Assembly (NCBI GenBank): GCA_947471505.1
Contig: CANIWM010000039.1
Coordinates: 1 to 52,605 of the forward strand
Source of the DNA: Chthoniobacteraceae bacterium
Lineage (GTDB): Bacteria; Verrucomicrobiota; Verrucomicrobiia; Chthoniobacterales; Chthoniobacteraceae
Direction of reading: 5' to 3'
DNA length: 52,605 nt
This document shows positions 48,817-52,605 of this stretch, piece after piece (position 1 is the stretch's first letter; the number at the start of each line of letters is the position of its first letter). The position numbers and the translations under genes were made by a program. The notes below the pieces were generated by a model. It saw only the letters and a program-made list of their open reading frames with translations, was not told where the DNA came from and made no database searches.

Positions 48817-49485
48817 TTAAGCAGCGGATTTCGCGCAGCAGCAGCCGGGCTCGCGGACGCCGCAGCAGAGCGGCACGGCGATGAGCGCGCCGAGCACAGG
48901 GGCGGTGAGATAGACCCAGAGATGCTGCAAATTTCCGCCGACAACGGCGGGCGCGAGGGAGCGGGCGGGATTCATGGATGCGCCGCAGATGGGCCCGGCA
49001 AACATGGCTTCCAGCGCGATGACGGCACCGACGGCGATGCCCGCCGTAATGCCTTTCTCTTTAGCCCCGGTGCTGACGCCGAGGACGACGAACATGAGCA
49101 TGGCCGTGAGGATGACTTCGAGCACGAAGCTCTGCATGGCCGGGCCCGCAGGGAGCGTCGCGCCGAGGTTTGCATCCGCAGGAAAGAGGACGCGCAACAC
49201 ACCACTCGCAGCGAAAGCTCCAGCGGTCTGTGCAGCTACGTAGCGGGGCACTTCGCTCCACGAAAAGCGCCGCGCCGCAGCGAAGGCGATAGTCACAGCC
49301 GGGTTCAGGTGCGCGCCGCTGACGTCGCCGAGCGTGTAAATCATCGCCAGCACGATGAGGCCAAAAGTGAGCGCGACGCCTGCATGGGTGATGGCTCCGC
49401 CGCTGGCATTATCGATGATGATCGCGCCAGTTCCGGCAAAGATGAGGGCGAACGTGCCGAGGAATTCTCCGAGAAGTTTCTTCAT
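48817..49485 (-). CDS. Aquaporin (arsenite-channel AqpS-like context)
   Basis: 222 residues, six TM helices and two NPA half-helices (LNPAVT and MNPARS). The neighbour arsC, 2 bp downstream, suggests arsenite efflux by the channel, as in the aqpS-arsC type (inference from context). The C-terminal tail is unusually cysteine-rich: [11 protein letters not shown]. No ArsR, ArsB or Acr3 is near. Confidence 0.85.
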
Positions 49486-49900: not shown

Positions 49901-50077
49901 ATGCCAGATCGGATGCAAAAACCAACCGGCCCCGCGCCGTGGGAACCCAAACAGGGAGACGGCGATGGACCCAAGTCGCCAGACGCCAAGAAGCCCGACA
50001 CCAAGAGCATCCTAGAGCGGATGCGCAAGGTGGACCCGGACCAAGCCCGTCGCTATAAACAACGCACGGGAGAATAG
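49901..50077 (+). CDS. ubact: UBact prokaryotic ubiquitin-like modifier
   Basis: 58 residues from the ATG at 49901 (a GTG at 49883 would add six residues; another ATG at 49913 is also possible). The protein is polar and Gly/Pro/Asp/Lys-rich in the first half (PAPWEPKQGDGDGPKSPDAK), without predicted folded core, with a helical C-terminal segment (ILERMRKVDPDQARRYKQ) and the end RTGE. This is the UBact family signature: a Pup-like disordered modifier with a C-terminal Gly-Glu/Gln tail, found in PVC, Nitrospira and others outside Actinobacteria. Ending in Glu, it needs no deamidation before ligation by a PafA-type ligase. The proteasome beta subunit begins 6 bp downstream. Ligase (PafA/Dop-like) and ATPase are not in the window. 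Confidence 0.85.
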   Translation: MPDRMQKPTGPAPWEPKQGDGDGPKSPDAKKPDTKSILERMRKVDPDQARRYKQRTGE

Positions 50078-50083
50078 TCGGCG

Positions 50084-50890
50084 ATGCACTTTCCCGGCAC
50101 ACCAGTCTCGCTCACGGACGCAAGCGCGCCGGATTTTTCCACGCTGCTCCAGCGGCAGGGGCTCTACCCGAAGCCCGCCGAAGTCCACGCGAACACCTCG
50201 CTCGTGCCGACGCACGCGACGACGATCTTGGCGTTCAAATACGCGGACGGCGTGCTCGTCGCGGGCGACCGGCGGGCGACGGCGGGCAATGCCATCATGT
50301 ATGACCGCGCGGATAAGGTGCTGGAGATTGACCGCTTCTCGCTCATGGCCATCGCGGGTGTCCCGGCGACGGCTTGGGAGATGGCGCGCGTGCTGGAGCA
50401 CAGCTTCCATTTTTACCGCCGCAGCCAGCTCGCGGAGATGAGCATCGAGGGAAAAGTGCGGGCGCTCTCCAAGCTGCTGCGCGATAACCTCGGCTTCGTC
50501 CTGCAAGGCGTCGGCGTCGTCGTGCCCATCTTCGCGACTTATGATGCGGCGGCCAATGCGCCCCGCGTTTATTTCTACGACGCGATGGGCGCGGGCTTTG
50601 AAGCGGCGGAATACACGGCCACGGGAAGCGGCAGCCCGGCGGTGAAAGCGGTGCTGCATTTCGAGAACACCTACGGTCGCCGTCCGCTGAAAAAGCTGAA
50701 GCCCAGCGAGGCCACGCTGCTCGCACTGCGGGCGCTGGACACAGCGGCGGAATCCGACTCGGCGACGGGCGGGGTGGACCGGCGCGCGAAGATTTTCCCC
50801 ATCGTGAAACTGATCACGGAGCGCGGCATCGAGACGCTTTCCGATGCGCGGCTTGCGCGGCTGTATCGCGGGAACCTTGCCTCCGCGTAA
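50084..50890 (+). CDS. prcB: Proteasome beta subunit
   Basis: 268 residues. A ~45-residue propeptide (MHFPGTPVSL...VPTHA) precedes the mature N-terminus TTILAFKYADGVLVAGDRRA. Thr46 is the catalytic Thr1; Asp62 and Lys78 sit exactly at mature positions 17 and 33 as in 20S proteasomes. The GDRRAT and DKVLEI motifs confirm the Ntn-hydrolase fold. It is translated directly after UBact and is followed without any gap (TAAATG) by the permease gene. No prcA follows, which is unusual because alpha and beta genes are normally adjacent. Confidence 0.92.
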   Translation: MHFPGTPVSLTDASAPDFSTLLQRQGLYPKPAEVHANTSLVPTHATTILAFKYADGVLVAGDRRATAGNAIMYDRADKVLEIDRFSLMAIAGVPATAWEMARVLEHSFHFYRRSQLAEMSIEGKVRALSKLLRDNLGFVLQGVGVVVPIFATYDAAANAPRVYFYDAMGAGFEAAEYTATGSGSPAVKAVLHFENTYGRRPLKKLKPSEATLLALRALDTAAESDSATGGVDRRAKIFPIVKLITERGIETLSDARLARLYRGNLASA

Positions 50891-51655
50891 ATGCCGACGC
50901 TGTCTGCTTGGGAGTGGTTTTTCGCCGTGCTCGCGGCGCTGGGTATCGGCATCTCGAAGAGCGGCTTTGCCGGCGTCAGCCTCGTGCATGTGCTGGTGAT
51001 GGCGCACATCTTCGGCGACCGTCTTTCCACTGGTGTCGTGCTGCCGATGCTCGTCGTCGGCGACATCTGCGCGGTGGTGGCGTTTAAGCGGCACGCGATT
51101 TGGAAGCACGTCGCGCGCACCCTGCCCATCGCCTGCATCGGCGTCTGCGTGGGGACTTGGCTGATGACCATCATCCCGCCGACCGCCTACAAGCCCGTCA
51201 TCGGCTGGACCGTGCTCGTCCTCGTCGTGCTGCAACTTTGGCGGATGTGGAAGCCTGCGATGTTTGAGACCGTGCCGCACTCGTGGCCCTTCGCCGCCGC
51301 GATGGGAATGCTGGCAGGCATCACCACAATGATGGCCAACGCCGCTGGCCCCGTAATGGGCCTCTACTTCCTCGCCGTCGGACTGCCGAAGTACCAGCTC
51401 ACCGGCACGAGCGCGTGGTTTTTCCTGCTCATCAACTTGTTCAAAATCCCGTTCAGCGCGGGCCTCGGGCTCATCCACACCAATACGCTGCTCTTCAACG
51501 CCGTGCTCGTGCCCGGAATTGTCGCCGGGCTCTTCTTTGGTCGCTGGCTGCTCGCGCACGTCCCCCAGCGACTCTTCGACGGGCTCATCCTCGGCTTCGC
51601 CGCCATCGCGGCGCTGATACGGCTGGGCTTTTTTGAGTGGGTGCGGGGGCTGTGA
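50891..51655 (+). CDS. TauE/SafE-family membrane permease
   Basis: 254 residues with about eight TM segments and the two-half TauE/SafE layout (GIGISKSGFAGVSLVHVLVM; AGITTMMANAAGPVMGLYFL). The family exports sulfite, sulfonates or organic acids. The start codon immediately follows the prcB stop, so co-transcription is expected, but there is no known functional link to the proteasome. Confidence 0.82.
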   Translation: MPTLSAWEWFFAVLAALGIGISKSGFAGVSLVHVLVMAHIFGDRLSTGVVLPMLVVGDICAVVAFKRHAIWKHVARTLPIACIGVCVGTWLMTIIPPTAYKPVIGWTVLVLVVLQLWRMWKPAMFETVPHSWPFAAAMGMLAGITTMMANAAGPVMGLYFLAVGLPKYQLTGTSAWFFLLINLFKIPFSAGLGLIHTNTLLFNAVLVPGIVAGLFFGRWLLAHVPQRLFDGLILGFAAIAALIRLGFFEWVRGL

Positions 51656-51741: not shown

Positions 51742-52308
51742 CTAGTTTAACCCCGTCTCTTCCGGCGCTTCCGCCACGAGCTGAAACCACGGGCCGAAGG
51801 TGCTCGTCATCTCCCGCCAGATGCGCGGGGCGCGTTCGACTTCTAGCACTTCTTCGTGGTCGGCCTTGCGCACGAGCCACGAGCGCTGCGCGAGTTCGTT
51901 TTCGATTTGCCCGCTGGACCATCCGCTATAGCCGACGAACGCTCGCACGGTGTGATGCTGGGCTGCGGCGAGCTGCGCGGCTTCTTCTAGGGAAATGTGA
52001 TGCTTGCACTCAAAGAGCCGCTTTTCCGAGTGCCACCGAAACGCCGCCAGCAGCATCTTATCCGGCTCCACCGGCCCGCCTTGCAGGACGGGGACACGCG
52101 CTAAATGTGGACCGATTTCTTGGTCCGAGAGAAGTTCGCCGACGAGCTTCCCCGTCGGGCGATTGAGCACGAGGCCGAAGCTGCCTTTCTTCCCATCGTG
52201 GTCTGCGAGCATGATCACGGTCCGCCGGAACGTGGGCTCCACGAGGCTCGGGTGAGCGATCAAAAGACTGCCTGAAAGACTAAGTGAAGTGGATACCGGG
52301 TCACGCAC
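51742..52308 (-). CDS. YqgE/AlgH-family protein (UPF0301)
   Basis: 188 residues. The family pattern SGSLLIAHPSLVEPTFRRTVIMLADH, GSFGLVLNRPTGK, VLQGGPV and VRAFVGYSGWSSGQIENEL is complete. These small proteins are conserved in Gram-negative bacteria; their function is poorly known (named for alginate regulation). Convergent with the TauE/SafE gene. Confidence 0.85.
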   Translation of the reverse strand: MRDPVSTSLSLSGSLLIAHPSLVEPTFRRTVIMLADHDGKKGSFGLVLNRPTGKLVGELLSDQEIGPHLARVPVLQGGPVEPDKMLLAAFRWHSEKRLFECKHHISLEEAAQLAAAQHHTVRAFVGYSGWSSGQIENELAQRSWLVRKADHEEVLEVERAPRIWREMTSTFGPWFQLVAEAPEETGLN

Positions 52309-52465: not shown

Positions 52466-52605
52466 AAAAACGGCAGTTGACCCCGTTTTTGAGGCCGAAA
52501 AATAGGGTATTTTACTCTGGAAATTGCCAACTGCGGAGCAGTTGAAAATCACTCACCCGTCCAAGGCTCATTTTTCTCTGAAAATCCGTTCAACTGCCGT
52601 TTTTA
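52466..52605. repeat. Short element with 16-bp terminal inverted repeats
   Basis: TAAAAACGGCAGTTGA (52466-52481) and its perfect complement TCAACTGCCGTTTTTA (52590-52605, the window end) bound a 140-bp AT-richer segment. It contains an internal palindrome CAACTGC-GGA-GCAGTTG at 52528-52545 (approximate). The same terminal sequence is at 128-145. No transposase gene is inside, as for a MITE-type element. Confidence 0.7.

Follow-up and report, generated by a model that had tools for sequence, protein, structure and literature searches.

A gene for the ubiquitin-like modifier UBact and the adjoining proteasome beta-subunit gene prcB, found in a 52,605-bp window from a Chthoniobacteraceae bacterium, are interpreted here as part of a complete UBact-proteasome gene set, with six genes in five places of the genome and most likely acting by the mechanism outlined below (probability roughly 0.9). 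The window is the whole of contig C39 of a draft genome (G000; 6.07 Mb in 153 contigs, rated 96.7% complete). Our verdict is that its system is a real, complete, and dispersed member of the UBact-proteasome class.

The UBact-prcB locus

The 58-aa product of the UBact gene ends in QRTGE and passes the cut-offs of two curated UBact models, namely Pfam PF20513 (E = 8.3e-22; 77.1 bits versus a cut-off of 27.8) and NCBIfam NF033388, ubiq_like_UBact (E = 6e-23; 80.8 bits versus 35). These matches bear out the initial annotation, in which this protein was read as UBact; 6 bp lie between its stop codon (ending at 50077) and the ATG of prcB (50084). A short protein ending in Gly-Glu or Gly-Gln is a feature of the UBact family, and the window protein has this feature. 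The genome survey comprised 57 draft assemblies, namely G000 and 56 relatives. All 30 UBact sequences found, that of the window included, end in TG[EQ] (21 with Gln and nine with Glu), with the pattern used to collect these C-termini itself requiring G[EQ]. Among 79 named loci of relatives, 65 UBact sequences end in Gln and 14 in Glu. Glu-ended forms are found in G000 and G006, and Gln-ended forms in G009, G001, G002, G003, and G008. The UBact sequence is identical between G000 and G006 and differs from that of G009 at three of the 58 residues (aligned by eye). According to excerpts of an earlier survey, deamidation is required for Pup with a Gln end but not for Pup with a Glu end (Iyer et al., 2008; PMC2588565). 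By analogy with Pup, the UBact of the window, which already ends in Glu, would need no deamidation before ligation. That a Dop-like gene is kept in G000 despite the Glu end fits a role in removal of the modifier. No solved UBact structure was found among PDB sequences at E values up to 1. One relative (G039) has a second UBact gene (C227:16653-16781; E = 3.0e-19) away from its UBact-prcB locus.

Table 1. Features of the window discussed in the text.
Feature	Position	Strand	Evidence or remark
Aquaporin-type MIP channel, upstream neighbor of UBact in the lineage of the window	48817..49485	-	Family match; also in G006 and G009
UBact, 58-aa ubiquitin-like modifier ending in RTGE	49901..50077	+	Pfam PF20513 and NCBIfam NF033388 matches; C-termini compared in 30 genomes
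prcB, 20S proteasome beta subunit with N-terminal propeptide, 268 aa	50084..50890	+	PF00227, NCBIfam, alignment to solved chains
Predicted PrcB propeptide, 45 aa, removal of which would expose Thr46 as Thr1	50084..50218	+	Alignment to Rhodococcus chain 1q5q_H
TauE/SafE family permease, zero spacing after prcB	50891..51655	+	PF01925, E = 1.4e-24
YqgE/AlgH-like (DUF179) neighbor, no known link	51742..52308	-	PF02622, E = 9.2e-32
137-bp element with inverted ends AAAACGGCAGTTGA	52467-52603		Single end repeat at 127-140

PrcB matches PF00227 above the Pfam cut-off (E = 2.5e-27) and scores 175.6 bits against the NCBIfam equivalog TIGR03690, below the cut-off of 191.9. In a phmmer alignment, its residue 46 corresponds to residue 1 of 1q5q_H; therefore, Thr1, Asp17, and Lys33 are T46, D62, and K78, and the triad is in register as initially proposed. 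All three residues are invariant among 25 aligned PrcB sequences, that of the window included. The AlphaFold model of PrcB has a mean pLDDT of 72.0. HslV was considered as the identity of the subunit and rejected, given that the bacterial beta model scores far above the HslV models of NCBIfam. No HslV-like match was found in the 96.7% complete genome, where PF00227 matches only prcB and prcA. In one relative (G055), a second prcB-like gene (C519:876-1448; E = 4.0e-28) is located on its own contig, besides the UBact-adjacent prcB.

The pairing of UBact with prcB is not a matter of chance, because the two genes are no more than 1 kb apart in all 30 UBact-positive genomes among the 57 searched (G000 included). 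The gene positions and the PF01925 and PF02622 matches confirm that a TauE/SafE gene follows prcB directly and that YqgE comes next. Likewise, no prcA, ligase, or ATPase gene is present beside the UBact-prcB pair within the window, as had been noted. In most UBact-bearing relatives, the place occupied here by the TauE/SafE gene is that of prcA. The order prcB-TauE-YqgE recurs in G006 and G009.

The remaining genes and their dispersal

A Pfam profile search of the genome found two PF00227 genes, one of which is prcA on contig C3. Its product (L002) scores 27.1 bits against PF00227 (cut-off 22.4) and 62.7 bits against TIGR03691 (E = 3.3e-17), below the equivalog cut-off of 139.05, and its PDB matches are actinobacterial PrcA chains. 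For the PrcA of a relative (L128; 74% identical to that of G000), the top fold match of the predicted structure is Mycobacterium tuberculosis (Mtb) PrcA (Z = 20.8; rmsd 3.2; 216 aligned residues), with residues 51–120 of the model at low confidence (ten-residue means of 45–68). Two genes of the PF03136 Pup-ligase family score over the cut-off and form a PafA/Dop paralog pair. The best NCBIfam model is Dop for the gene on C10 (E = 2.5e-136) and PafA for the gene on C55 (E = 9.9e-100). Dop keeps the motif NGARFYNDHAHPEY and PafA keeps the motif NGGRFYLDMGHLEY, each with an Asp that we take to be the catalytic residue. The single PF17758 gene, near the end of contig C27, has the proteasome ATPase ARC as its best NCBIfam model (E = 9.6e-136) and contains a Walker A motif. 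PrcB, PrcA, Dop, PafA, and ARC are all under their NCBIfam equivalog cut-offs, yet pass those of Pfam; the low equivalog scores are taken to reflect divergence from the actinobacterial models rather than absence. All six genes of G000 have open frames, and wherever catalytic or nucleotide-binding motifs were looked for, they are present. The searches proposed with the initial annotation, for prcA, PafA/Dop-like and Mpa/ARC genes in the genome and for a UBact profile match, all returned hits; none of the components whose absence was to speak against it is missing. Judged from these matches, G000 has the complete gene set, which refutes a beta-only particle.

Among the 57 genomes, UBact is present in 30, a PF00227 gene in 32, a PF03136 gene in 30, and ARC in 27; PF03136 and ARC are found in 29 and 27 of the 30 UBact genomes, respectively. 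UBact has no match in the other 27 genomes, including G007 of the same genus (96% complete). The distance between prcB and prcA is 1 kb or less in 23 of the 30 UBact genomes. In G031 and G033, the HMM matches of the two genes are separated by 1.7–2.4 kb. The inserts were read in the named loci L185 and L132, which were matched to G031 and G033 on the basis of insert size and PrcB identity, and those in L132 include DUF5615 and PIN-domain genes. The two genes are on different contigs in G000, G006, and G001, and a PF00227 search found no prcA in G009 (86% complete). In one genome (G002), the pair is interrupted by a contig end. This genome was considered as a further split and rejected, as locus L209 has a cut prcA adjoining prcB; the second copy may be contamination.

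Among the best 80 of 114 named loci of relatives, 79 have UBact and 76 have prcA, with prcA at most 500 bases from prcB in 74. One of the four loci without prcA ends at prcB, and the others (L124–L126) are the three that match the window best. The best-matching named loci are from Verrucomicrobiota, many of them labeled Chthoniobacterales or Spartobacteria, including Chthoniobacter flavus Ellin428; two close metagenome bins carry the label Prosthecobacter debontii (bin label only). As lower bounds set by draft contigs, no more than 3.5 kb separates ARC from Dop in at least 15 of the 27 genomes having both, and PafA lies at most 10 kb from UBact in at least three of the 30 UBact genomes. One 96% complete genome (G011; L031/L215) has clustered UBact-prcB-prcA, with no PafA/Dop (PF03136) and no ARC match, and is possibly a case of an orphan core particle; its UBact is 93 aa long when read from the first ATG.

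ARC was found at E = 1e-80 or better in 12 of 383 genomes of the phylum, and eight of the 12 belong to one other family (f16) of the same class. In all six f16 loci read from those eight genomes, ARC-Dop-UBact-prcB-prcA-PafA form a single six-gene cluster. The actinobacterial gene order is the same as that of the f16 cluster. In G000, the six genes are held by five contigs rather than by one neighborhood as in Actinobacteria. Excerpts of Iyer et al. (2008; PMC2588565) state that Pup and PafA homologs are genomic neighbors in all lineages then known, a rule from which G000 departs.

Comparison of flanking genes indicates how the cluster came apart. In C. flavus and several others, UBact-prcB-prcA is flanked by a GYF-LysM gene pair on one side and an amidase gene on the other. 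The cluster of G001 is split between prcB and prcA, with UBact-prcB retained on the GYF-LysM side and prcA with the amidase gene. In G000 (C83) and G006, the GYF and LysM genes are together with neither prcB nor prcA beside them, and a different contig (C82 in G000) carries the best amidase match. UBact-prcB in these two genomes has the aquaporin gene on one side and TauE-YqgE on the other, and prcA is preceded by a ketoacyl-synthase gene. G006 is a different assembly, with a PrcB 98.9% identical to that of the window. A chimeric contig is unlikely, because UBact-prcB-TauE-YqgE is also found in G006 and G009, as is the prcA neighborhood of G000 in G006. Taken together, these patterns indicate that UBact-prcB and prcA both left the ancestral site in the lineage of the window, with the six genes now in five places. 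In a tree of PrcB, Dop, and ARC, G000 and G006 group with G009 at a support of 100, and the genus is likewise supported at 100; the supports around G001 are 55 and 56, compatible with either one or two splits of prcB from prcA (in G001 and in the G000/G006 lineage). As far as seen, the scattered arrangement is new; the family itself is ordinary.

The 137-bp element in the window belongs to a high-copy, MITE/REP-like family at which the assembly breaks, and the genome contains at least 40 copies identical in sequence (103 candidates). Among the 40 copies listed, 24 start no more than nine bases from the beginning of a contig, and two form the ends of contigs C39 and C27. On C27, a copy follows ARC at a distance of about 0.46 kb. 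Adjacency of the window to C27, suggested by their common contig-end sequence, was rejected, since this sequence is the same element in the same orientation, with at least 40 copies.

Sequence comparison establishes the six genes, the catalytic residues of PrcB, the Asp motifs of PafA and Dop, the family of ARC with its Walker A motif, and the scattering specific to this lineage. In the most likely mechanism, the PafA-like ligase would link the side-chain carboxylate of the C-terminal Glu of UBact to lysines of target proteins. The Dop-like enzyme would mainly take UBact off, and would not be needed for deamidation because UBact ends in Glu rather than Gln. An ARC hexamer would bind the tag, unfold the target, and feed it into a barrel that we infer to be built of PrcA and PrcB rings, their stoichiometry included, in which Thr46 (Thr1 once processed) would cut the target. 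The scattered genes would still function together.

Other explanations may be considered for these patterns. The initial annotation had left a choice between a system dispersed in the genome and a beta-only particle, i.e., PrcB working with no alpha subunit and UBact as a relic or in some other role. The dispersed alternative is what was found (prcA on C3, Dop-like on C10, PafA-like on C55, and ARC on C27). The beta-only alternative may be suggested by the lack of prcA beside prcB in the window and by G009, where none was found. However, both G000 and G006 have prcA, with alpha-type matches, and G000 also has ARC and both PafA-family enzymes, such that this alternative is refuted unless the prcA contig is foreign, and we give it almost no weight. 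Scattering may also be an artifact of assembly or binning, with UBact-prcB-prcA together in the real genome; a draft of 153 contigs and a 137-bp repeat at many contig ends are compatible with such an artifact. Nevertheless, prcB and prcA are each internal to their contigs with genes on both sides, the separately assembled G006 has the same arrangement, and the GYF-LysM pair stands without prcB in both genomes, where only one UBact match each was found. An artifact is thus highly improbable.

Alternatively, the broken cluster may reflect decay, with some parts no longer jointly used and the UBact pathway being lost in the lineage. The set is incomplete in some relatives, and the 27 genomes without a UBact match (G007 among them), G009 without detectable prcA, and G011 without ligase and ATPase matches all point in this direction. 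This explanation is nonetheless unlikely for G000, in which the six genes are all open with their motifs and UBact has been conserved to the extent described above. A complete set with dispersed genes is the reading that we prefer.

ARC tails and the PrcA pocket

The part of this system most worth specialist attention is a possible docking variant. The ARC of G000 ends in PAVI rather than in the GQYL of actinobacterial tails. ARC frames were read from 35 genomes, of which one is cut (L103) and 34 are intact (26 from G000 and relatives and eight from f16). All 34 intact proteins end in two V/I residues (VV in 16, VI in 13, IV in three, and II in two), and none has a Tyr in the last 15 residues. 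Two actinobacterial controls, from Nonomuraea and Tsukamurella, end in TGQYL; these are two of three ARC matches in a plasmid collection, the third of which, from Streptomyces, aligns to 59% of the query and is not used here. Mpa of M. tuberculosis likewise ends in GQYL, as stated in excerpts of PMC9599533 and PMC8142254. For the complex, the excerpted text of PMC9599533 describes contacts of Mpa Tyr608 with PrcA Arg26 or Glu119, pairing of the Mpa terminal carboxylate with PrcA Lys52 in one of two binding modes, and contacts of PrcA Asp144 and Ser146 with the backbone of the Mpa motif. According to the same source, changing PrcA Arg26 or Lys52 to alanine abolishes PafE-driven degradation.

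When aligned to Mtb PrcA (E = 3.4e-19), a profile built from verrucomicrobial PrcA has Leu in place of Glu119 and Arg in place of Glu121, and retains Lys52 and Asp144. The Arg26 column contains P, S, G, T, and A (and one each of V, Q, and H). The equivalents of Arg26, Glu119, Glu121, Lys52, and Asp144 in the PrcA of G000 are T25, L118, R120, K49, and D141. Among 84 distinct PrcA sequences (from 88 mutually related rows: 82 full-length rows from 90 loci and six from f16), those Lys, Leu, Arg, and Asp residues are invariant, the Arg26 position is never Arg or Lys, and Ser146 is retained in only 23. The PrcA proteins of Rhodococcus and Nonomuraea retain Arg26, Lys52, and Glu119 (alignments by eye). 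This comparison covers one phylum, at 26–28% identity to Mtb PrcA, and its contrast is provided by three actinobacterial PrcA proteins and three ARC tails. The claim concerning the pocket rests on sequence alignments because the PrcA model is weak at residues 51–120, which include one pocket position.

The loss of the Tyr and of both its contacts, with two other contacts kept, is what tyrosine-free docking would leave. These patterns suggest that verrucomicrobial UBact proteasomes may well dock without a Tyr, through a V/I-ended ARC tail and an alpha-ring pocket rebuilt to match. If this is true, and if ARC is a homohexamer as in Actinobacteria, the result would be a proteasomal ATPase ring with no HbYX/GQYL-type tyrosine in any subunit. 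The motif is also absent from some eukaryotic Rpt subunits. No paper on verrucomicrobial ARC tails was found by title or abstract, although a prior description is possible.

Comparison with known proteasome systems

A UBact-proteasome system of Gram-negative bacteria was reportedly described by Lehmann and colleagues in 2017. Apart from that work, searches by title and abstract found no paper on UBact and no experimental study, and a prior description is possible; the available excerpts of PMC7203096 and PMC12288473 contain no UBact passage. Because no experimental study of UBact was found, the basic parts list of one genome is useful. The arrangement in G000 indicates that a tag-ligase-ATPase-protease set can lose its clustering, even the usual contiguity of prcB and prcA, with all genes still open. 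This lineage is thus a natural test of how important co-location is for assembling a two-subunit barrel.

The identities of UBact and PrcB support the initial reading of a ubiquitin-like (Pup-like) proteasome system outside Actinobacteria. Its unusualness for the taxon was overstated, given that UBact adjoining prcB is common in Chthoniobacterales and that excerpts of Iyer et al. (2008; PMC2588565) already include Pup-type conjugation in verrucomicrobia. Both proteasomes and Pup-like conjugation had been reported earlier for Verrucomicrobiota. In addition, the alpha and beta subunits of armatimonadetes, nitrospirae, and verrucomicrobia form a subcluster apart from the actinobacterial ones according to excerpts of Fuchs et al. 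(2017; PMC5666114), in which no mention of ATPase tails, docking, or gene scattering was found.

The system of G000 resembles the UBact-proteasome system in having a UBact above both cut-offs, an adjoining PrcB, and PrcA, PafA-like, Dop-like, and ARC proteins encoded in the genome, and apparently differs from it in having these genes in five places. Compared with the actinobacterial Pup-proteasome system, the same component families are present. However, the modifier is of the UBact family with a TG[EQ] end, verrucomicrobial ARC ends in two V/I residues instead of GQYL, Arg26 and Glu119 of PrcA are replaced, and the genes of G000 are scattered.
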